Part shown: positions 22,576 to 35,052 of the stretch, one piece after another
How the letters are laid out: every line of letters begins with the position of its first letter
Position numbering within the stretch: position 1 is the stretch's first letter
Assembly: GCA_004298115.1 (NCBI GenBank)
Contig: SCRJ01000171.1
Span: 1 to 48,507 of the forward strand
Direction: 5' to 3'
Length of the DNA stretch: 48,507 nucleotides
DNA from: Acidobacteriota bacterium
Lineage (GTDB): Bacteria; Acidobacteriota; Thermoanaerobaculia; Thermoanaerobaculales; Thermoanaerobaculaceae
Notes under the pieces: generated by a model
What the model was told of the DNA's origin: nothing
What the model saw: the letters and a program-made list of their open reading frames with translations, nothing else
Database searches by the model: none
Program-made: the position numbers and the translations under genes

Positions 22576-23090
22576 CGCGCCCCGATGGCGTCGGGGCGCG
22601 CCTGGGGAGCGGGACATCTCGGCGCGCGTCGGATGTACGTCCGGTACGCCAGGACGGTCACTGGCAGCATCGAAGCCTGCATTCGGCAAGAGAAGTTCGC
22701 TGCTTCCTCATCGTTGACGTTCCGCCTTTCGGCCCGCCGCACACCGCGCGGACCACGAGGGGCCCCCTGAGGCCGGCCCAAGAACCGAAGTCTGGCCCAA
22801 CCCTCCCGGGCGCGTCAATCGAAACTTGGAGCGAGCGATTGGCGCAACGACGCAACGAGGTCACGGCGCATCGCTTCCCTGGAACCATGGCCCGCACCTG
22901 CCGGTGATCGGTGTCACGTTGCGCGACCCCGATGCCGCCGTTGCGATCGTCCAGGCTGAACTTGCTGCTGCTATCATCACCAGGAGGCTGCGGGACGACA
23001 CGGGGGGCAGAGACGCGGACCGCTGGTTTCCGCTGAGGCTCGTCGTCCGTTTGGCCGCGGCAAGCATTGTTGTTGGAGGAATCAACACTC
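22576..23090. other. divergent intergenic region, about 515 bp
   Basis: It must contain the promoters of the two large secreted-protein genes. No strong sigma-70 pair was found; TATCAT at 22972-22977 is an isolated -10-like match. TTGGAGGA at 23073-23080 is the ribosome binding site of the right-hand gene. No small gene is evident. Confidence 0.4.
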
Positions 23091-26000
23091 ATGCCGTCAA
23101 TCCCGACTCGTGGCTGGTTCCTGTTCAGATCCGTCTGCGCCATGCTGTTCGTCGCCACCGCCGTTCGGGCTGCCGAACAGGTCCGACTCGTCAAGTCATT
23201 CGATTGGGTCGCCAATCCGCCCTGGGGCGGCTGCGGCCTGCAACCGACCCTGCCGACGGACGGCCTCGGCTTCGCGGTCTTTCTCGGCAGGCCCGGCGGC
23301 CTGAGTTGGCGAACGGATGGCACCGCGGCGGGGACCTACGTGTTGTCGGACGGTTGCGTCGGCGCCTGCCAGGGCGGCCCGATGACCGAAGTCGCGATCG
23401 TGGGAGGCGAGGCGTACTACGTGGGAGGTCCGGACGGCACCCTCGTGCTCCGGAAGACGGACGGAACGGTCGAAGGTACCGGGGTCGCGATGCTCCTGGA
23501 CGAATCGGCACAGACGAGTTCGCCGCCCCATGTTGCCAGCCTGGCCGGACGCCTGCTCATTCTCGGCAGGTACCTGGGCAACGACGGCGTTTGGCTCAGC
23601 GATGCGACCCCTGGCGGCACCACGCTCCTGAGTCAAGCCGGCGGCGCCGACGCTCCCCTCGTCGCGGGCAACCAGGCGTTCTTCTCGGCAACCGACCCGA
23701 GCCTCGGCAGGGAGCCGTGGGTGACCGACGGCACGGCCGCCGGGACGCATCCGTTGAAGGACATCTGCCCGAACGATTGCTCGTCGGACCCGTACGGCAT
23801 GGTGCAGGCCGGAGGGCTGGTCTACTTCCTCGCCAACGACGGCGTTCAGGGTGTGCGCCTTTGGCGGAGCGACGGCACACCGGACGGCACCTTCCGTCTG
23901 CGTGACGACTTCCCGAGCGGCACCCTCGGTTACCCCTACTCGATCCAGCCGATCGGGAGCAAGCTCGTGTTCTTTCTCGGCGGGTTGGGTCAAACGAGCC
24001 ACATGTGGTCGAGCGACGGCACCGCCGCCGGCACCACCGACATCTACGACTTTCCGACCCCCGGAGTCGGGACGCCCAGGGAATCCGGCGCGGCGTACGG
24101 CGGGCTCGCCACCACGGGACGAGAACTGTTCTTCAGCGCCGACGATGGGGTCCACGGACCCGAGCTGTGGGCCACCGACGGCACGCGCGACGGTACGCAC
24201 CTGGTGCGCGACATCACGCCGGGCGCGTACGGCACCTCGATCGCGTTGGCCGCGTCGTCGCCGCAGGCCGTCCTGATGGTGATCGACGACGGCGTCCACG
24301 GCCGCGAACTCTGGCGGTCGGACGGCACTTCCGCCGGGACCTTCATGGTGGGCGACGTCTGCCCGGGGTCGTGCTCGTCGGACCCGGGCAACGTGACCGT
24401 CATCGGCAGCGCCGCGCTCTTCACGGCCGAGAGCTACGCTCCGGACCGTATGCTCGGTCGCCAGCTATGGAGAACGGACCTGGTGACGGGCGCGACCGAA
24501 CTCGTCGCCGATATCTGTTCCGGCGGGTGTTCGTCCTTCACCTGGTCCGGTTCCCCGTTCATCGTCGAGGGAGGCGCGGCGGTCTTCTCGGCGATGTCGA
24601 ACGACGGGTACTGCCGGGTGTGGCGGAGCGACGGCACGACGGCGGGCACGCTCCAGTTGCTCGACTGGGCGCAAGGCCCGATGGCTAATGCCACCGGAAC
24701 GATCGGGCGAATGATCAACGTCAATGGCGAGTTGCTGTTCACTGCGACCGGTTCCTCCGGGGCGCCGGCAGCGTGGCGTTCGGATGGCACCACCAACGGG
24801 ACGGTCCCCTCCGAAGTCCAGTCGCCGTCCGCCTCCTGGACCGTGTCGGGTGGGCGGATCTTTGGGTTGACCTACCTCGGGACCGATCCGGCGCCTTCGA
24901 TCGTCGTCACCGATGTCGCCGGCGGCGGCACTCGAGACCTGGCCACCTGCCAGCCAGGCATGGGCCCGTTCTGGCCCAACGGGTTCCAGCCCTATCGTGG
25001 GGGCGTCTTCTTCCAGAACTATGACCCGGTCCACGGCGCCGAGCTGTGGGCCAGCGACGGGACGTCCGGCGGCACCCGGATGGTGGAGGACATCTTCCCC
25101 GGGCAGGGAGGCTCTCAGCCGGCGGATTTCGGGCGGACGAGGGACGCCGTGCTCTTTTCGGCCGCCACGACAGGCCAGGCCCGGGATCTCTGGAAGAGCG
25201 ACGGCACCCCCGAAGGAACTTCGCTCGTCACCGCGGGGATCGGCCCATCCCAGCTCGTCAGCGTGGGTGATCGGGTGTTCTTCGACAGCTGCCGCCCCTC
25301 CTGCACGCTGGCGGTTTCGGACGGGACGCCGGCCGGGACCCGGAGCCTTCCCGCCAGGGATCCGAGCGGCATGATCGCGTTCAACGCGGGCGTCCTGTTC
25401 GTCGGGTCGTCGAACTCGGGCTACGAGCTCTGGCGCAGTGACGGCACCCAGTCCGGCACCTACATGGCCAAGGACATCCGGCCGGGGCCGGGTTCGTCGA
25501 ACCCCAGCGATCTCACCGCGGCCGGGGCGCGTGCGTTCTTCGCCGCGGCCGCTCAGCCGGGCGACGTAGAGCTGTGGAGGACCGACGGGACCGCCGCCGG
25601 GACCGCCCTGGTCAAGGACATCGCCCCGGGGCTGCTGGGCTCGGATCCCACATCCCTGGTCGCCGCCGACGGCGTCGTCTACTTCGTCGCTTCGGACGGA
25701 CAACACGGCGCCGAGCTGTGGCGCAGCGACGGGACGGCGGCGGGCACGAGCATGGTGGAGGACCTGTGTCCGGGAGCATGCTCCTCGACGCCGGCGGGGC
25801 TGACCCGAATCGGCTCGACGGTGTTGTTCGCGGCGGACGACTGGCAGCACGGGATGGCGCTGTGGGCTCTCGATCTCGGGCTCGTGGAGGCGAGCGTCAT
25901 GGACGCGACCGTGCGTCCCGGCGAAGCCCAGGCGACGGTGCCGGTCGCGCTGAGCGCCAAGCCGGACCGCCAGGTCACGTTCGGATTCGAGACCGAGGAT

Positions 26001-26249
26001 GGGACCGCCCATGCGGGCTCCGATTACGCGCGGGCCTCCGGGACGCTGACGATCGCCGCCGGGAGCGGGACGGTCGCACCGATCGTCGTGCCGGTCACGG
26101 CCCGCAGCCCCGGCGAGCCGGAGCATTGGTTCTTCGTCAACCTCACGGAACTGTCGGGCGGGACGGTCCGGCGGAGCACCGCTCGGGTGACCCTGAGCGA
26201 CAACTCGACCGCCCGACGCGTGCGCCGGCACCTGCGGGCCGCGCCCTAG
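23091..26249 (+). CDS. secreted ELWRSDGT-repeat protein with Calx-beta-like C-terminal domain
   Basis: A 1052-residue exported protein. A signal peptide ending near AVRAAEQ is followed by roughly 18 repeats of about 50 residues with the core (E)LW-R-S/T-DGT-x-x-GT-x-x-V-x-D (examples ELWRSDGTAAGTSMVED, ELWATDGTRDGTHLVRD, LWRSDGTPDGTFRLRD). Each continues with a strand such as VYFVASDGQHG. This pattern fits multi-bladed propellers. The last 110 residues resemble a Calx-beta domain (TVPVALSAKPDRQVTFGFETEDGTAHAGSDY, split here into its visible strands, then FVNLTELSGG). The protein ends with TARRVRRHLRAAP. The start at 23091 is favoured over TTG at 23067 by GGAGGA 10 nt upstream. It may bind polysaccharide or calcium at the surface; no catalytic motif is seen. 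Confidence 0.8.
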   Translation: MPSIPTRGWFLFRSVCAMLFVATAVRAAEQVRLVKSFDWVANPPWGGCGLQPTLPTDGLGFAVFLGRPGGLSWRTDGTAAGTYVLSDGCVGACQGGPMTEVAIVGGEAYYVGGPDGTLVLRKTDGTVEGTGVAMLLDESAQTSSPPHVASLAGRLLILGRYLGNDGVWLSDATPGGTTLLSQAGGADAPLVAGNQAFFSATDPSLGREPWVTDGTAAGTHPLKDICPNDCSSDPYGMVQAGGLVYFLANDGVQGVRLWRSDGTPDGTFRLRDDFPSGTLGYPYSIQPIGSKLVFFLGGLGQTSHMWSSDGTAAGTTDIYDFPTPGVGTPRESGAAYGGLATTGRELFFSADDGVHGPELWATDGTRDGTHLVRDITPGAYGTSIALAASSPQAVLMVIDDGVHGRELWRSDGTSAGTFMVGDVCPGSCSSDPGNVTVIGSAALFTAESYAPDRMLGRQLWRTDLVTGATELVADICSGGCSSFTWSGSPFIVEGGAAVFSAMSNDGYCRVWRSDGTTAGTLQLLDWAQGPMANATGTIGRMINVNGELLFTATGSSGAPAAWRSDGTTNGTVPSEVQSPSASWTVSGGRIFGLTYLGTDPAPSIVVTDVAGGGTRDLATCQPGMGPFWPNGFQPYRGGVFFQNYDPVHGAELWASDGTSGGTRMVEDIFPGQGGSQPADFGRTRDAVLFSAATTGQARDLWKSDGTPEGTSLVTAGIGPSQLVSVGDRVFFDSCRPSCTLAVSDGTPAGTRSLPARDPSGMIAFNAGVLFVGSSNSGYELWRSDGTQSGTYMAKDIRPGPGSSNPSDLTAAGARAFFAAAAQPGDVELWRTDGTAAGTALVKDIAPGLLGSDPTSLVAADGVVYFVASDGQHGAELWRSDGTAAGTSMVEDLCPGACSSTPAGLTRIGSTVLFAADDWQHGMALWALDLGLVEASVMDATVRPGEAQATVPVALSAKPDRQVTFGFETEDGTAHAGSDYARASGTLTIAAGSGTVAPIVVPVTARSPGEPEHWFFVNLTELSGGTVRRSTARVTLSDNSTARRVRRHLRAAP

Positions 26250-27635: not shown

Positions 27636-27806
27636 TTAGAGATCCCCCTTCTTTGGTTTCTTGCTCTTGATGCCCGCTGTTTTCGGTTGTGGGGCAAGAA
27701 GTCCCCGCATGGCATCATCGAAGCCGAGTGGATAGAGGCTAGTCGGCTTGAGTCGTTTCTCGGTTTGCTTGGGCGCGGCTGGTGTCTTGGGTTGTCTGTT
27801 GCCCAT
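27636..27806 (-). CDS. 56-residue protein translationally coupled to the transposase
   Basis: Read directly from the sequence: the start codon overlaps the transposase stop in TAATG, and GGGAG lies about 6 nt upstream inside the transposase gene. The product starts MGNRQPKTPAAPKQTEKRL, has a central SLYPLGFDDAMRGLLAPQP and ends in a Lys-rich tail (GIKSKKPKKGDL). The centre resembles small proteins with a 'PLxFxxALxxLL' core that I have seen beside other genes, where no function is known. A role as regulator or accessory factor of the transposase is a reasonable inference from the overlap. Confidence 0.72.
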   Translation of the reverse strand: MGNRQPKTPAAPKQTEKRLKPTSLYPLGFDDAMRGLLAPQPKTAGIKSKKPKKGDL

Positions 27807-28687
27807 TAAACTCCCGCTATAACGTGGTCGAATATGTCAGCGTCCTTCCTCGCATTATAGCGGAAAGAGAACTCATTGAGGTACAGGGGCAAGTAAGCCT
27901 TGGAAACCTTGTAGAACGTCCCGACCATCCCACGCTTGAGCAGCGACCAAAAGCTGTCAATGTTGGAGGTGTGGACGTTGACATGGACGTACTGTTTTCG
28001 GCTGTGGTTCACTGACTTGTGGGGCAGTCCAAGGTCCTTGTAGTTCTCGTGTTCGTCGGTTGCGACCAGCTTGACCTTCTCAGACACGACGGAGCGGACG
28101 AACCCGACCATCGTGGCCTCTTTGGTGTTCTCGATGAGGCTGGCGACCACGTTGCCCTTGCGGGCGATAGCCCCGATAACGATTGTCTTGCCAGCGGTGC
28201 CCCGGCCACCCTCATACATGTTCTTGCCGCCGCCGATGCCGCCGCCGTGCCGGTTCTTGGCCTTGCCGCCCAGGTAGGTCTCGTGCACCTCAACGACGCC
28301 GGTGAGCTTCTGAAACTCGTCGCTCTGCATTGCGGCCCGAATGCGGTGGCACATGTACCAAGCCGTCCGGTAGGAACCGCTGCCGATGGTGCGGTGGATT
28401 TGGAGGGCGCTGATGCCCTTCTTGCTCTGGCACATGAGGTAAATGACCTGGAACCAAGCGCGTAGCGGGTAATTGGTGTTCTCGACGATGGTCCCGACAA
28501 GGGGGGAGAAGCGGTAGCCGTTGGGCGAGCACTTCTTACATTGCCAAGTCCAGGGGCGGGAGAGTATATGAACTCTCTTGTTGCCACACCGGGGGCACGA
28601 GACGCGCTGCGCCCATCGCATCTCGACCAGGTACGCCTTGCAGGCATCCCCGGTAGCGAACCGCGCCATAAGCTGGTCGAGCGTCAT
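27806..28687 (-). CDS. IS1595-family (ISXO2-like) transposase, probable catalytic substitution
   Basis: A 293-residue transposase. The N-terminal zinc ribbon uses C31, C34, C50 and C53 (SCPRCGNKR, QCKKCSPN). The DDE-type core follows: VVEVHETYLGGK around residue 135, LVATDEHENY with D211, and HTSNIDSFWSLLKRG with N242 and K251, then YLNEFSFRYNAR. In this family the first catalytic residue is normally Asp (VDETY). Here codon 135 is CAC (His), one base from GAC, so catalysis may be lost unless His is tolerated. The ATG at 28687 has CGGAGG upstream. The gene is otherwise full length. It forms an operon with the 56-residue ORF. Confidence 0.9.
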   Translation of the reverse strand: MTLDQLMARFATGDACKAYLVEMRWAQRVSCPRCGNKRVHILSRPWTWQCKKCSPNGYRFSPLVGTIVENTNYPLRAWFQVIYLMCQSKKGISALQIHRTIGSGSYRTAWYMCHRIRAAMQSDEFQKLTGVVEVHETYLGGKAKNRHGGGIGGGKNMYEGGRGTAGKTIVIGAIARKGNVVASLIENTKEATMVGFVRSVVSEKVKLVATDEHENYKDLGLPHKSVNHSRKQYVHVNVHTSNIDSFWSLLKRGMVGTFYKVSKAYLPLYLNEFSFRYNARKDADIFDHVIAGV

Positions 28688-29353: not shown

Positions 29354-32300
29354 ATGGTGGGCGGCGACCCAAGGCTGTTCGACAAAGAGGTCACACCGTA
29401 CTCGGATGCATTCGTTGAGGCGCTTGAGTCCTACTGCGGGCAGATGGCGGAGGCGATTCGTAAGCATAAGCACCACGACCACCGCCGGAATTTGCTCTTG
29501 AACTTCTTTCGCCAGGGGCTGGACTTGGACCCAATCGAGTTCGAACTCGAGCGGAAGGTGCGGGCGGATGCAGTCCGAGGCCGAATTGACGCGTTCTTCC
29601 GCCAACTAATCATCGAAGTCAAGACCGACCTTGAGCGAGAGCGTGGCGACGCCCACGCCGAACTGAAGAAGTACTTTGAATCACAGGCCCGACCGGATGA
29701 TTACGTTGGGCTGGTCACCGATGGGCTGAACTTTGAGGTTTACATTTACGAAGGAGGTTCAGTCCGCCAGATCCGCAACTTTGCTCTCGATTCGGCGTCG
29801 CCGCTGACAACCTTTCGGCACTTGGACCAACTCTTCTTCACCGCCCAACGACTTCACCCAACGCCCGGCGACATAGTTGACCGTTTCGGGCTACACAGTA
29901 CCGCTTACAACGCTGTCCGTCGGTCCCTTCTGGCGGCGTTTGAGGCTGTGCAGAACCAAAGTTCGGTCGAGGTGAAGTTTCGGGAGTGGAACGGGCTACT
30001 TGCCAAGGTGTACGGTAGTGAGGTTGGCGACCGTACGCTCTTCATCACCCACACCTACCTCGCCATATTGTCCCGCGTGATTGTTACCATGGCGCTCTTT
30101 CCAAAGGCCCGGAGAACCCCGCAGATGCTTCGGGGCATTGTGACCGGGGCCTTCTTTCGCCGGAACCGCCTTGTCAATCTCGCCGAGCCAGACTTCTTTG
30201 CCTGGGCACTTGGCAATCCGGCAGAGCCAGTCCTATTGGCGGAGATCGAAAGACTCTTTGCTGGCCTCGAAATCTACAACTTTGAAAGGCTCGACGGGGA
30301 CATCCTAAAGGAACTCTACCAAGGGCTGGTCGGCGCGCCGACACGCCACGACCTTGGCGAATACTACACCCCGGACTGGTTAGCGGAACTGACGCTCGAG
30401 AGGATTGATTACAGGGGTGGGCGCCTGCTCGATCCAGCTTGTGGCTCTGGGACGTTTCTTTATGCGGCGGCACGGAGGCTCCGGCGCGTGGCCCGGCTAT
30501 CGGGCGCTAAGCTAGTCAAGGCGGTGACCGAAGACATCATCGGTATTGACGTCCACCCGGTTGCAGTACTAATGGCAAAGGCAAACCTGCTTTTGAGCCT
30601 GAAGGAGGAAGTTGCCAGTTACGCAGGGGAGATAGGCCTCCAGGTTTACATGGCGGACACCCTCACTACGGGTGAAGATAGAAGCAAGAGTGCTCTCGTG
30701 GTCCCAGTCTCGGGGGACGAGGAGGCGTTTCACATCCCCTCTGAGACGGTCGACAGGGGCGCTGGGACCCTGGATGCACTAATTGACGGGGTCTGCGACT
30801 TTGCCGGGCGTGGCGCGGGGTCTAGCGAGAAGGAGCGCCTTGCGCTCAAGGGTCTGCAGACTAAACTCAGAAGGGATGGTCTGTCGAAGAACGAAGAGTT
30901 CTTTTGGCGGCAGAACTTCCGCCTCCTCGTGAAGCTTGAGCGTGAGGGGCGCAACACAATCTGGGCCTACATTCTCAAGAACGCGTATCGCCCGGCCTAC
31001 GTTCGGCGTGAAAAGGTCGACTACCTGGTTGGTAATCCGCCGTGGCTCGCGTACGCATTCATCAAGAACAAGGCCTATAAGAAGCGAGTCAAGGAGCTCA
31101 CGTTCGAGCATGACCTTCTGAAGAAGACCGACCGGAACCTCTTCACCAGGATGGACACGTCAACGCTCTTCTTTTCACACTGTCAGCGTGACTTTCTGAG
31201 ACCCAACGGCACCATCGCGTTGGTCATGCCGAAGACAGCCATGCTTCCTGCCAAGCAGCACCTCCGCTTCCAGCGGAGGGGGTTTTCCGAAGCTCTTGAC
31301 TTCAGCGCTGTGACGCCGCTTTTCAATGTGCGTAGTTGCGTGCTGATTCGCACAAATGAGGTAAGGGCCGCCGGCATCCCGTGCACCGGTTTTCGTGGGG
31401 ACCTCAGGGCGGAGCACAACATGCCTTGGGCCAAGGCTAGGCAGCTTCTCACCACCGAAATCAGAAGACTGACCTTTGCTCCAGCGAATGTCGAGTATTC
31501 GCCCTACCATCCGAAGTTCTTCCAGGGTGCGACGCTGGTACCTCGGTGTCTATGGTTCGTCGAGCTAGCCGGCGCGGGGCCTGCGAACCCAATGGCGCCC
31601 TTTGTCCGCACCTCGAGGGCGGCGCATTCGAATGCGAAACAGCCGTGGACTATGGAAGTTGAAGGGCAAGTCGAGAAGGACTTCCTCTTTGCTACTGTGT
31701 TGGCAAAGGACCTTTTGCCCTTTGTTGTTCGTAAGTTGAGCCTAGTTGTTCTGCCCGTAAGGATTTCGCGAGACGATCGACTCGCCATGGTGGACGCGGA
31801 GGCGGCACTAGCAGATGGCTTTGTGCATGCTCATGACTGGTTCGAGAGGGCTGAGGCGATTTGGGAGGCACATCGAAGCAGCGAGTCTCGCACCGCGTTC
31901 CAGTGGTTGAACTATGACAACAAACTTACGAATCAGCCCTTTAAATGCCCGTTCTTTGTCCTTTTTAACCAGTCGGGGACGAATGTATCTGCCGCAATGG
32001 TCCCAGTCGCCGACGCCCAGGTGGTCGGGGCGTTAGGAATTCGAGGTTTGGTGGTTGATTCGAAGTGTTATTGGTTTGCTACCAAGTCCGAGGACGAAGC
32101 CCACTACCTCACGGGCATTTTGAACTCTGAAGTCGTTAATGCGGCGATTAAGCCACTGCAGACGCAAGGCCTACAGGGGGAGCGCGACATCCATCGCCGA
32201 CCTCTTGAGGCGTGCAATATTCCAATCTACGATAGTGGCAATCAACGCCATCAACGGATAGTGGAACTGGCGAGGGAGTGCCGGGCGCGGCTAATTGCCT

Positions 32301-32470
32301 TGGTCCCGAAGATGCAAGCGGCCGCGGGCAGGATACGCGGCGAGGCGCGCCGGATTGTCCGTGACCCGTTGGCCAGGCTGGACACGGAGGTGGAAGCGCT
32401 CTTGGCAACCGCTAGTGATGCGGATGGAACCGACGGGCGAGGCGCGAGCCAAGGCAAGCTTTTCGATTAG
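29354..32470 (+). CDS. type IIG-like restriction-modification enzyme (fused nuclease and N6-adenine methyltransferase)
   Basis: A 1038-residue single-chain enzyme predicted both to cut unmodified DNA and to methylate adenine in its target. N-terminal PD-(D/E)xK nuclease: D79, E88 and K90 in RGRIDAFFRQLIIEVKTDL. A helical linker follows, then the methyltransferase: GEYYTPDWLAELTL, SAM motif I DPACGSGTF (D360), and the catalytic NPPW (N561) in DYLVGNPPWLAYAF. The C-terminal 350 residues would be the target recognition domain (NYDNKLTNQPF, ILNSEVVNAAI, HRRPLEACNIPIYD). No helicase domain is present, which argues against type I or type ISP. The ATG at 29354 is only 1 nt from GGAGGA; the next codon, GTG, would be better spaced. 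Composition is clearly lower in GC than in host genes, which suggests transfer. It is convergent with the SDH protease gene. Confidence 0.85.
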   Translation: MVGGDPRLFDKEVTPYSDAFVEALESYCGQMAEAIRKHKHHDHRRNLLLNFFRQGLDLDPIEFELERKVRADAVRGRIDAFFRQLIIEVKTDLERERGDAHAELKKYFESQARPDDYVGLVTDGLNFEVYIYEGGSVRQIRNFALDSASPLTTFRHLDQLFFTAQRLHPTPGDIVDRFGLHSTAYNAVRRSLLAAFEAVQNQSSVEVKFREWNGLLAKVYGSEVGDRTLFITHTYLAILSRVIVTMALFPKARRTPQMLRGIVTGAFFRRNRLVNLAEPDFFAWALGNPAEPVLLAEIERLFAGLEIYNFERLDGDILKELYQGLVGAPTRHDLGEYYTPDWLAELTLERIDYRGGRLLDPACGSGTFLYAAARRLRRVARLSGAKLVKAVTEDIIGIDVHPVAVLMAKANLLLSLKEEVASYAGEIGLQVYMADTLTTGEDRSKSALVVPVSGDEEAFHIPSETVDRGAGTLDALIDGVCDFAGRGAGSSEKERLALKGLQTKLRRDGLSKNEEFFWRQNFRLLVKLEREGRNTIWAYILKNAYRPAYVRREKVDYLVGNPPWLAYAFIKNKAYKKRVKELTFEHDLLKKTDRNLFTRMDTSTLFFSHCQRDFLRPNGTIALVMPKTAMLPAKQHLRFQRRGFSEALDFSAVTPLFNVRSCVLIRTNEVRAAGIPCTGFRGDLRAEHNMPWAKARQLLTTEIRRLTFAPANVEYSPYHPKFFQGATLVPRCLWFVELAGAGPANPMAPFVRTSRAAHSNAKQPWTMEVEGQVEKDFLFATVLAKDLLPFVVRKLSLVVLPVRISRDDRLAMVDAEAALADGFVHAHDWFERAEAIWEAHRSSESRTAFQWLNYDNKLTNQPFKCPFFVLFNQSGTNVSAAMVPVADAQVVGALGIRGLVVDSKCYWFATKSEDEAHYLTGILNSEVVNAAIKPLQTQGLQGERDIHRRPLEACNIPIYDSGNQRHQRIVELARECRARLIALVPKMQAAAGRIRGEARRIVRDPLARLDTEVEALLATASDADGTDGRGASQGKLFD

Positions 32471-32564: not shown

Positions 32565-32798
32565 CTATCGCTGCTCTTCTGTTGCAGCCTCGCCGTTCTC
32601 AAGGGCGCAGGGCTGGGTTGCGCCCTGTGGTGTTGTGACGAAGATGGTCGTCAGGCCATAGGCGACTCGGTTGTAGGTCGTGCTTGCGAGGTATCGCACG
32701 GTCCCGCTTGGTCCGGCGGCCCCGCTCGCATTCCTACTCGAAGGCGTCGGTCTAAGGAGAGAACGCTCCGCATCCGAAGCGTAGATGGGCTCAATCAA
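32565..32798 (-). CDS. 77-residue protein coupled to the SDH protease gene
   Basis: Starts with TTG at 32798, inside the last codons of the protease gene (8-nt overlap). A near-perfect ribosome binding site AGGAGGTG lies 5 nt upstream of it, itself within the protease coding region. The product starts MIEPIYASDAERSLLRP and has TVRYLASTTYNRVAYGLTT and a polar end (ENGEAATEEQR). No family is recognised. The strong RBS and overlap point to coordinated synthesis with the protease, possibly as partner, inhibitor or substrate; that is inference. Confidence 0.6.
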   Translation of the reverse strand: MIEPIYASDAERSLLRPTPSSRNASGAAGPSGTVRYLASTTYNRVAYGLTTIFVTTPQGATQPCALENGEAATEEQR

Positions 32799-33918
32799 GA
32801 TGCACCTCCTGGGTGGCGGTCCTGGTGTAGGACCAGCCAGCTGTCACCGGAAGGACGTTTATCGCCAGATTCATGTCAGGCTGACGTACCGCGTTGATCC
32901 TCCCACGTGTTTCAAACCGCGCGGAGGCGCGCACGCTTTCCAAGGCCGCTTGGAAGAGGGTGTACTCGATGTGCGGGGTTGCAACTACTTGTACCTGCTG
33001 AAGCACGTTGCTCAGAACCTGTTGCGCAAGCTGCGCCGGCAGATTGGCTGGCATTTGGACTTGTGGCACGGTTGACAGCATCGCAGCGAGGTTAGGGTCG
33101 GAAAAGACGAGCTCGACGGGGGTGAAGGGGCGCCCACATTGCATCTCGCTCTCGATGTCCTCCCAGGCCGACCACATGGCACCTTCAAGTTCGGGCTGGG
33201 GATGGATAACAGGGAGCCCGATACCCGCCGCCTCCACCCGCGCAACAGGGTAGCCGTGGTGGAAGAAGGACTTATTGAGGGCCTCTGCGATAGCTCGGGC
33301 GCGCCCCTTGTCTCCCATGTGGAGGCTCAGTAGCTTCTCTCCAAGCGATAATGCCAGCTGTGCGCTACGCTTGGCGACCCCAATTGGTATCGAGCCTACG
33401 TCTTTACACACGAGCTCGAATGCCCGCTCAAGCTGCTCCTGATCGGAGATGCCAACATCCGTGCGCACGAACTCGAGGAAGTTGCGAAGGTCTTCCGAGC
33501 CGAAGTGAATCGTCTCAGGGTCTTGGCCCGGCAGGCGCTTCTGGTAGGTGAGTTGGGGGTCTACGGGCCCCATGTTAGAGAACGGGTGCATCACAATCTC
33601 GTCTGCTCCAAGCGCCAACAACGTTGCGGCACTGTAGGCAGCATAAGGCAGCAAGGCCCCAACCTTCTCGAATCGGTCACGAAGCATGCTGGCAACCCTC
33701 CATGACACCATGGGGTCGCCACCGGTACTAACGATCAATAGGTCGATTGCCTTTGCGGTACTATCGATCTCAAGCAGCTGGCGCGCAAACAGGGGAAGGA
33801 CGTCCGCGGCCATCATCCCGCCGCCGTTGGCCCGGGAACTCGTGACGTAGGCCACGAGAGGTCGCCCTCTAAGGGTTTCGATGTTCCTGTAGATAGCGAC
33901 TCGATCCTGGAAGCTCAT
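32791..33918 (-). CDS. SDH-family Clp-fold serine protease
   Basis: A 375-residue protein of the SDH (serine dehydrogenase proteinase) branch of the ClpP/SppA fold. The N-terminal domain has LVAYVTSSRANGGG, DLLIVSTGGDPMVSWRVA, then the probable nucleophile S96 in YAAYSAATLLALGADEIVMHP and the conserved GPVDPQ with D120. The helical middle (RAFELVCKDVGSI, LALSLGEKLLSLHM) is typical. About 150 further residues form a C-terminal extension that may bind a partner. No signal peptide is present, so it is cytoplasmic. The start at 33918 has only a moderate AAGG upstream. Composition resembles the neighbouring type IIG gene, not the host. The function could be cleavage of membrane or signalling proteins; no substrate is evident. 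Confidence 0.85.
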   Translation of the reverse strand: MSFQDRVAIYRNIETLRGRPLVAYVTSSRANGGGMMAADVLPLFARQLLEIDSTAKAIDLLIVSTGGDPMVSWRVASMLRDRFEKVGALLPYAAYSAATLLALGADEIVMHPFSNMGPVDPQLTYQKRLPGQDPETIHFGSEDLRNFLEFVRTDVGISDQEQLERAFELVCKDVGSIPIGVAKRSAQLALSLGEKLLSLHMGDKGRARAIAEALNKSFFHHGYPVARVEAAGIGLPVIHPQPELEGAMWSAWEDIESEMQCGRPFTPVELVFSDPNLAAMLSTVPQVQMPANLPAQLAQQVLSNVLQQVQVVATPHIEYTLFQAALESVRASARFETRGRINAVRQPDMNLAINVLPVTAGWSYTRTATQEVHLD

Positions 33919-34278: not shown

Positions 34279-35052
34279 TCAGCGCAGCCGCGTGATGAGG
34301 GCGACGCCCAGGAGCGCGATGACCGCGATGAACAGCGACAGGCCGATCCCGCCCAACGCCGGTATCGCCTCGACGGGACCCAGCGCGCAGCCTCCGGCCC
34401 ACGAGATGGCGTTGGAGAGCAGGCGCGTGTCGTTGGGGCCGGCGGCGCTGCCGTACACGTTGAAGCCGATGTACACCGCCCGGCCGCTGCCGACCAGCTC
34501 GGAGCTGACGACGCGGGTATAGGTGGTCTCGCCGAACTGAGCGTGCGCGACGTCCGGCAGGGCGGCGTTGGTGACCCACCCGATGTAGTCGTCGGAAACG
34601 TCGTAGGCCCAGAAACCCCGGCCCGTCCAGGACGCGGCCAGGCCGGCCGCGAGCGGGCTGGCGGCATCGGTGATCGTGACCGTGATCGGGGCGCCGTTGG
34701 TGATGTTGGTGTAGGTGTTGGGAAAGTACTTGGGCCAATCGCCGAGCTCGATGTACCCCTTGCCCGAGTTCAACCAGGTCGTGACATCAGCGCTCGGCAG
34801 GTTGTCGGCGTCGTAGCGGTCGATGATGACGCTGGCGTGCGCCGTCTGGGCTTCGGCCAGCGAGGTGACGTCCACCCAGGGGACCCCGAGCGCGGTGAGC
34901 GTCGCGTGCAGCTGGGGCAGCTCGATCCCGCCCCCGCCCGCGACGACCGCAACGGTGCAGCTCGGAGCCGGTTGCGCGTTGGCGGCCAGCGGGGCCAAAC
35001 CGAAGGCGACGAGCATGGACAGTAGGGACAACACCAGGCGGCGACTCTTCAT
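34279..35052 (-). CDS. secreted protein with IPTL-CTERM-like sorting tail
   Basis: A 257-residue exported protein. The signal peptide (LVLSLLSMLVAFGLAPLAANA) is followed by a compact domain (CTVAVVAGGGGIELPQLHATL, ASVIIDRYDADNLPSADVTTWL, GYIELGDWPKYFPNTY, GRAVYIGFNVYGS). This resembles the glutamine-amidotransferase-like 'ThuA/LbtU' style of extracellular alpha/beta domain, but I cannot assign it firmly. The tail IPALGGIGL, hydrophobic helix (SLFIAVIALLGVALI) and TRLR end fit the IPTL-CTERM class of envelope-sorting signals. No exosortase-like gene lies in the window. The start at 35052 has AGGAGG upstream, and a good promoter lies about 80 bp further. Confidence 0.75.
   Translation of the reverse strand: MKSRRLVLSLLSMLVAFGLAPLAANAQPAPSCTVAVVAGGGGIELPQLHATLTALGVPWVDVTSLAEAQTAHASVIIDRYDADNLPSADVTTWLNSGKGYIELGDWPKYFPNTYTNITNGAPITVTITDAASPLAAGLAASWTGRGFWAYDVSDDYIGWVTNAALPDVAHAQFGETTYTRVVSSELVGSGRAVYIGFNVYGSAAGPNDTRLLSNAISWAGGCALGPVEAIPALGGIGLSLFIAVIALLGVALITRLR

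Follow-up and report, generated by a model that had tools for sequence, protein, structure and literature searches.

In the window, the whole 48,507-nucleotide stretch analysed here, the gene of an SDH-family Clp-fold protease runs into an overlapping small open reading frame (ORF), a two-gene arrangement that recurs among relatives of the protease, some of which carry a Doc or MazF toxin gene alongside. Computation supports the pair itself, its recurrence, the selection acting on the relatives, the toxin linkage, the similarity of the tails, and the covariation of the small protein's head with the protease and of its tail with Doc. We see about an even chance that the pair is a modular, protease-gated toxin-antitoxin (TA) system with toxin-linked relatives, of which the window would hold the two-gene form.

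Protease, small partner and surroundings in the window

The locus consists of the following features:

27806-28687, minus strand: IS1595-family transposase (NCBIfam 1e-58), adjoining the restriction-modification (R-M) gene on the margin of the low-GC block
29354-32470, plus strand: type IIG R-M enzyme gene, 1038 aa (PADLOC 3.7e-81), convergent with the pair
32565-32798, minus strand: small partner ORF, 77 aa, TTG start, directly after the protease gene
32568-32708, minus strand: C-terminal part of the small protein, without a Doc-antitoxin-type tail and with no relative found
32709-32798, minus strand: first 30 residues of the small protein, its head, resembling the heads of ten archaeal small proteins
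32791-33918, minus strand: SDH-family Clp-fold serine protease gene, 375 aa, recognised by its PF01972 profile match and AlphaFold fold
32803-32810, minus strand: Shine-Dalgarno (SD) sequence of the small ORF, exact AGGAGGTG, within the protease gene
From about residue 317 of the protease: C-terminal beta strands

The protease scores 57.6 bits against Pfam PF01972 (SDH_protease), above the gathering threshold of 31.3, and stays short of the equivalog cut-off of NCBIfam NF047768 (Clp_like_SDH; 62.9 vs 250 bits). In the AlphaFold model of the fused chain, which joins the protease and the small protein, 272 of 450 residues have a pLDDT of at least 90, and the best PDB matches of the model are ClpP, SppA and 1510-N (E 2e-6 to 4e-5); a PDB sequence search with the protease alignment gave no match at 0.001. 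The profile score and this fold likeness bear out the SDH/Clp-fold identity put forward in the original prediction. Residues S96, D120, E142, H221 and W362 show no variation across 20 aligned sequences, and the putative catalytic residues may lie among the first four.

The small ORF begins inside the end of the protease gene, the two overlapping by 8 nt (32791-32798), with the SD positioned 4 nt from the TTG start. A near-perfect AGGAGGTG in the protease gene end, a TTG start and an 8-nt overlap had been predicted, and all three are present, the SD match being exact. Dinucleotide shuffles of the small-ORF stretch yielded an equally good ORF, by the SD-led criterion, in 2 of 100 cases, on which ground a chance SD was rejected. 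The codon-position composition is atypical (GC1 0.58, GC2 0.61, GC3 0.66) and does not clearly show coding character; GC2 exceeds GC1 in 10 of the 57 small ORFs collected behind SDH proteases. A promoter and terminator scan returned nothing exceeding shuffles.

Within the small protein, the head matches the heads of ten archaeal small proteins with p = 0.001, the reference set excluding L004, L104, L105 and L007, and one residue having been taken out of L098 and L099. The same test gives p = 0.0003 for both G869 and L003 and p = 0.19 for L044, and an archaeal-type head is not supported in ten other small proteins (p at least 0.42), including L005 and L007 of the window's clade. The remainder of the chain shows no Doc-antitoxin-type tail (anchored tail test, p = 0.35) and no MazF-type tail by eye, and hhalign joined the small protein to no other small-protein family. 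The small part of the fused AlphaFold chain stays below a pLDDT of 50 and is not docked onto the protease; as modelled, the small protein is probably disordered.

Around the pair, the GC content drops to 56-64% at 27-34 kb, against 65-78% in most of the remaining window (40-43 kb is also lower, at 59-64%), and the predicted lower-GC block containing the pair together with an R-M gene is confirmed, the type IIG gene lying inside it. This gene is separated by 94 nt from the small-ORF stop and occupies the same side and strand as Doc in the archaeal loci described below. The other neighbour, an ORF at 34279-35052, reached no family above its cut-off, and with these two neighbours the pair has no toxin gene beside it; the single Fic-family match in the window's genome is located on another contig, behind an ORF that appears RhuM-like by eye. 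PADLOC 2.0.0 assigned no family at E<=0.1 to the protease or to the small protein. Further along the window, a 1060-aa protein encoded at 23067-26249 (plus strand) contains a Calx-beta domain and numerous repeats of the 'LWRSDGTxxGT' type.

A search of 297 genomes of the phylum gave 21 with a match to the window protease at E<=1e-15, the window's own genome counted. None of the others comes from the same family, order or class; the protease gene was probably acquired. The window's genome also contains a second, distant SDH-like match (L002, G000:C198:2192-2536), with 37% identity over 117 aa.

Recurrence of the pair

The nearest relatives found for the window protease are archaeal: G869 reaches 60% identity and another eleven genomes 54-58%. 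They are placed in the phylum, and all but G869 in the class, of a Methanoregulaceae archaeon genome (L004, G298). Further relatives are found in Bacteroidota, Chloroflexota (a plasmid), Clostridia, Planctomycetota and viral contigs.

An SD-led small ORF, defined as 40-125 aa with an SD match of at least 5 nt and a start between 60 nt before and 40 nt past the protease stop, follows the protease in 35 of 75 nearer relatives (window counted), compared with 1.7 expected from dinucleotide shuffles, and in 3 of 35 more distant relatives, compared with 1.2 expected. Relatives count as 'nearer' when at least one of three tblastn queries scores 190 bits or more against them; the group is score-based and not tree-based, and takes in some branches that have no small ORF. 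The test excluded loci whose downstream sequence was short or masked, duplicate records, and near-copies from E. coli (L050, L058-L064). The collection of 57 small ORFs behind SDH proteases (43-111 aa) was chosen by eye among candidates; L145 and L147 contain a similar frame with no start in the set range, and L158 stops at the contig edge. Of the 22 small-ORF pairs with the highest similarity, 20 have a dN/dS of 0.06-0.57, and dS is saturated in the other two. The recurrent small ORFs are real proteins, with purifying selection on the similar ones.

Lack of conservation of the small ORF, the first ground for refutation given in the original prediction, was rejected on the count of 35 in 75 and on the 57 ORFs collected: the place behind the protease is kept, the ORF being conserved as a partner and its sequence hardly at all. 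Profile comparison (hhalign) did not unite the small-protein families, the only signal linking the archaeal set with L003, L044 and L083, and a PDB sequence search with the archaeal small proteins gave a best E of 0.2. Additional small-partner families behind SDH proteases are marked by 'LAGQWN' (L134, L116, L117), 'VPFG' (L088, L089, L106) and 'GNLxxxMKN' (L074, L075, L135); the flanking DNA searched for these three holds no match to the Doc and MazF queries.

Toxin-linked relatives and the two-part small protein

Fifteen archaeal loci fall in the window's clade: 13 from the class of G936, G869, and L007, a Methanomassiliicoccaceae record. All except G869 (14 of 15) carry a Fic/Doc gene directly downstream on the opposite strand, as detected by tblastn. 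Four tested Doc genes match PF02661 at 37.7-46.3 bits, and plasmid relatives are mostly annotated as death-on-curing toxins. The distance from the small-ORF stop to the Doc stop is 0-2 nt in 11 of the 14 loci, and -7, -20 and +50 in the remaining three. A Pfam DNA-binding domain is absent from 13 archaeal small proteins, and in the range searched upstream of Doc there is no convincing Phd-like partner. In L121, however, an ORF that looks Phd/YefM-like by eye lies ~470 nt upstream of Doc, and the end of an additional frame, preceded by an SD match of 7 nt, falls at the frame of Doc.

The Doc-linked small proteins share a conserved C-terminal stretch, e.g. LMQRHKKTLELLAE. In a C-terminally anchored test, devised after inspection of the tails and run with a final His stripped, Doc-type tails compared with plasmid Doc antitoxins gave p = 0.0002 for Asticcacaulis, 0.004 for Acidiphilium, and 0.018 and 0.066 for two from Acetobacter, three of these four antitoxins looking closely related; the controls, four MazF antitoxins and 17 Doc-less small proteins, gave p of 0.054 or more. 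With local alignment, tried earlier, one of the four reached significance. The comparison suggests that the Doc-linked relatives carry a tail like those of canonical Doc antitoxins, with toxin neutralisation as its putative role.

Three bacterial loci (L127, L128 and L118) have a PemK/MazF gene behind the small ORF, both reading in the same direction. The three MazF-linked small proteins also have no Pfam DNA-binding domain, and two of them, L024 and L026, display a C-terminal WDN..D..W..L stretch. Five antitoxins, those beside the nearest plasmid MazF genes, were compared with these two tails. Three of them (L211-L213), whose heads are of the AbrB type, of the ribbon-helix-helix type or of no recognised type, gave p of 0.001-0.013 in five of six comparisons and 0.089 in the sixth, and the remaining two matched poorly (L214, p 0.064/0.042; L215, 0.25/0.36). 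The third MazF-linked small protein, L078, shows a weak tail match (p 0.024-0.73), and no antitoxin emerged when MazF-type tails were run against plasmids by tblastn. In other SDH loci, archaeal sister branches among them, there is no Doc/MazF match in flanks that mostly extend only ~1.5 kb.

Head and tail vary with different partners. Across 13 Doc loci (L100, with a truncated Doc, excluded), partial Mantel values are 0.67-0.70 for tail and Doc given the protease (p = 0.0005) and -0.03 to 0.07 for tail and protease given Doc. The head follows the protease given Doc (0.57-0.70, p<=0.0015) and, given the protease, still correlates with Doc above zero (0.30-0.39, p<=0.008). After removal of the three most distant loci (n = 10), tail-Doc is 0.60-0.76, head-protease 0.63-0.69 and head-Doc 0.01-0.07, with tail-protease given Doc at 0.06-0.35, the value of 0.35 (p = 0.012) arising with longer tails. 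This is the pattern expected of a protease-facing head and a toxin-facing tail, observed in 13 related loci and not in itself proof of contact. In the protease tree, from which L103 was excluded, the window is placed inside a 22-row clade that takes in every one of the 13 Doc-linked rows, with a support of 100/100; the branching inside it would fit a loss of Doc on the window's lineage as well as a gain elsewhere.

Defence genes identified by PADLOC are located near 8 of the 15 loci of the window's clade having longer flanks: type IIG near the window and L119, type I R-M near L108 and L109 (which have near-identical small ORFs), BrxL near L107, AbiA near L123, PDC-S20 near L124 and a DpdJ-like helicase near L044, ten neighbour proteins in this comparison having been selected by eye. 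Inspection by eye added HipBST-like genes for L003 and the end of a type IIG gene for L004, L111 contains a MazF-like gene by tblastn, and L113, which belongs to a sister branch, has a ThsB-like gene nearby. A neighbour scan found 188 PADLOC families at 1e-10 in the case set vs 20 in the control, a difference that we do not claim as statistical enrichment of defence genes: many of the 188 hit the same two type I specificity proteins, and the scan took in every one of the 95 case genes but, of the 133 control genes, only the first 95. The setting originally proposed, that of TA modules or proteolytic defence, is supported as TA for the Doc-linked and for two of the three MazF-linked relatives; for the window, where no toxin gene is adjacent, it is only a putative reading, and proteolytic defence, an activity that we do not claim, would be conjectural.

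Proposed gate, its alternatives and known systems

In the proposed mechanism, an SDH-family Clp-fold protease would be co-translated with a two-part small protein consisting of a variable C-terminal part and a protease-partner head, the latter replacing the usual DNA-binding domain of an antitoxin. In toxin-linked loci, the C-terminal antitoxin-type tail would neutralise the Doc or MazF encoded next door, and in the resting cell the small protein would hold the toxin. Once triggered, e.g. by infection or stress, the protease would remove the small protein through its head, freeing the toxin and thereby stopping growth. In the two-gene form of the window, with protease and head, no tail and no toxin, the small protein would most likely restrain or steer the protease itself. 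Binding, cleavage, the trigger, a role in defence and all function of the window's copy are what we infer from the computed patterns.

We class the Doc- and MazF-linked relatives as a variant of TA systems, and the window, placed outside TA systems, as a toxin-less member of their protease-partner clade. With type II TA systems (Doc with its antitoxins, MazEF/PemIK), the relatives share the Doc and MazF toxin families and similar C-terminal antitoxin tails. They differ in a head that has no Pfam DNA-binding domain and covaries with the SDH protease gene, and in a convergent Doc; the window copy differs further by having no toxin.

The gate is favoured, and two systems offer precedents. The orthocaspase MaOC1, encoded beside a ParDE-like module, is described in the available text of its report as cleaving that antitoxin (PMC7935541). 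There too a protease gene adjoins a TA pair, whereas MaOC1 is a cysteine caspase-like enzyme and the antitoxin an ordinary one; here a serine protease of Clp fold has a partner of its own, often in toxin-less loci. In the nuclease-protease pairs of Hachiman/AVAST, as outlined in PMC12799240, a protease activates a nuclease effector in phage defence. The switching on of an effector by a co-encoded protease resembles the proposed gate, whereas the protease in those pairs is trypsin-like or a caspase and cuts a pro-nuclease. For the COG2856/Xre three-component systems, a co-encoded protease was proposed to remove an antitoxin or repressor next to a toxin (PMC2701414); it is a zinc metalloprotease acting with an Xre protein, and 'SDH' and 'ClpP' occur 0 times in the main text of that paper. 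Titles and abstract openings, covering few subscription papers, yielded no published description of such a protease-partner module and almost nothing on the broad SDH protease family; the original prediction, too, knew of no named system with exactly this pair.

How TA systems are triggered and which protease removes the antitoxin form a long-disputed question. If the protease-gated reading is true, a locus encoding both its own protease and an antitoxin with a protease-covarying head would make the dispute directly testable in one module, the exchangeable Doc and MazF toxins serving as built-in controls, and a function would be suggested for part of the broad SDH protease family, including the copy in some E. 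coli strains.

SppI-like inhibition and SocA-like delivery would remain alternatives to this gate, chiefly where, as in the window, the toxin is missing. The first is possible, if rather doubtful: the small protein would keep a potentially harmful Clp-fold protease inactive until a signal arrives, the protease being the effector and the toxins later additions. SppI, encoded beside SppA, is reported to bind and inhibit it (PMC7568657), and SppA, likewise a protease of the Clp-fold class whose partner gene lies next to it, ranks with the best fold matches of the window protease. Covariation of the heads with the protease fits an inhibitor, as do the pairs with no nearby Doc/MazF match in Bacillota, E. 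coli, Planctomycetes and the window; the antitoxin-like tails and the toxin genes are left unexplained by it. In the available text of the same report, SppA and SppI are membrane proteins and SppI is an inhibitor with no toxin link, whereas the small ORFs look soluble by eye.

Delivery is unlikely. Here the small protein would act as SocA does and deliver the toxin to the SDH protease to be destroyed, other clients taking the toxin's place in toxin-less loci, and loss of the protease would free the toxin. ClpXP is a general protease and not part of the SocAB module. SocA brings SocB to ClpXP (PMC8832971, in the text available), an antitoxin thus connecting a toxin to a protease, and the head/tail split suits an adaptor, whose variable C-termini would suit variable clients. 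However, the tails resemble those of antitoxins annotated beside Doc/MazF genes with no such protease in the short stretches viewed, so that destruction of the toxin may not be needed.

It is improbable, too, that the pair serves housekeeping proteostasis and that its toxin and defence links are incidental. Such a role finds support in Bacillota, where the curated small ORF belongs to one family by eye in 20 of 23 close loci, no Doc or MazF match lies within ~1.4 kb, and Hsp20-like genes (by eye) are found near the pair in 5 of 12 regions listed, together with dap/dut-like neighbours; a sporulation or proteostasis role is possible there. Elsewhere the spread is patchy, with no match in the window's family, order or class among the 297 phylum genomes. 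In E. coli, the SDH protease version is present in 47 of 5,426 genomes and lies beside the antiterminator Q gene in 30 of 30 records among the matches listed. The pair also occurs on viral contigs, and defence genes lie near it in the window's clade. Mainly housekeeping contexts were named in the original prediction as a ground for refutation; the neighbours look housekeeping by eye in Bacillota, but loci of the window's clade often adjoin R-M, BREX, AbiA, Doc or similar genes.

Decay or chance as the origin of the 77-aa frame in the window, with the protease alone being functional, would accord with its C-terminal half without a homologue, its atypical codon-position GC and its isolation in hhalign, but is made improbable by the exact SD with an 8-nt overlap (2 of 100 shuffles), the head similarity (p = 0.001) and the relatives' small ORFs in the same place.

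A very improbable extension of the protease-gated reading is that the type IIG enzyme of the window takes the toxin's seat, the protease and its partner gating restriction instead of Doc; in that case the family would work as a general switch under the control of a protease, its effectors (Doc, MazF, restriction enzyme) being interchangeable.

Several further contexts were observed. The E. coli version is located between the Q and holin genes in the two contexts examined (L045:7998-9170; L050), where its 59-aa partner ORF, also with an 8-nt overlap, is missing from the gene tables; a terminator-like hairpin then follows by eye. The phage collection holds no match for the window protease and weak matches for the E. 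coli version in 7 records. In Bacillota, L166, L168, L170, L171 and L173 have Hsp20-like genes and coat-like proteins (by eye) near the pair. Two metagenome viral contigs carry a protease with a small ORF (L204:5001-6460 and L205:2817-4182; 39-40% identity), surrounded by phage-like genes, and their small ORFs share a common 'V(R/K)D.PHR.LS' stretch.
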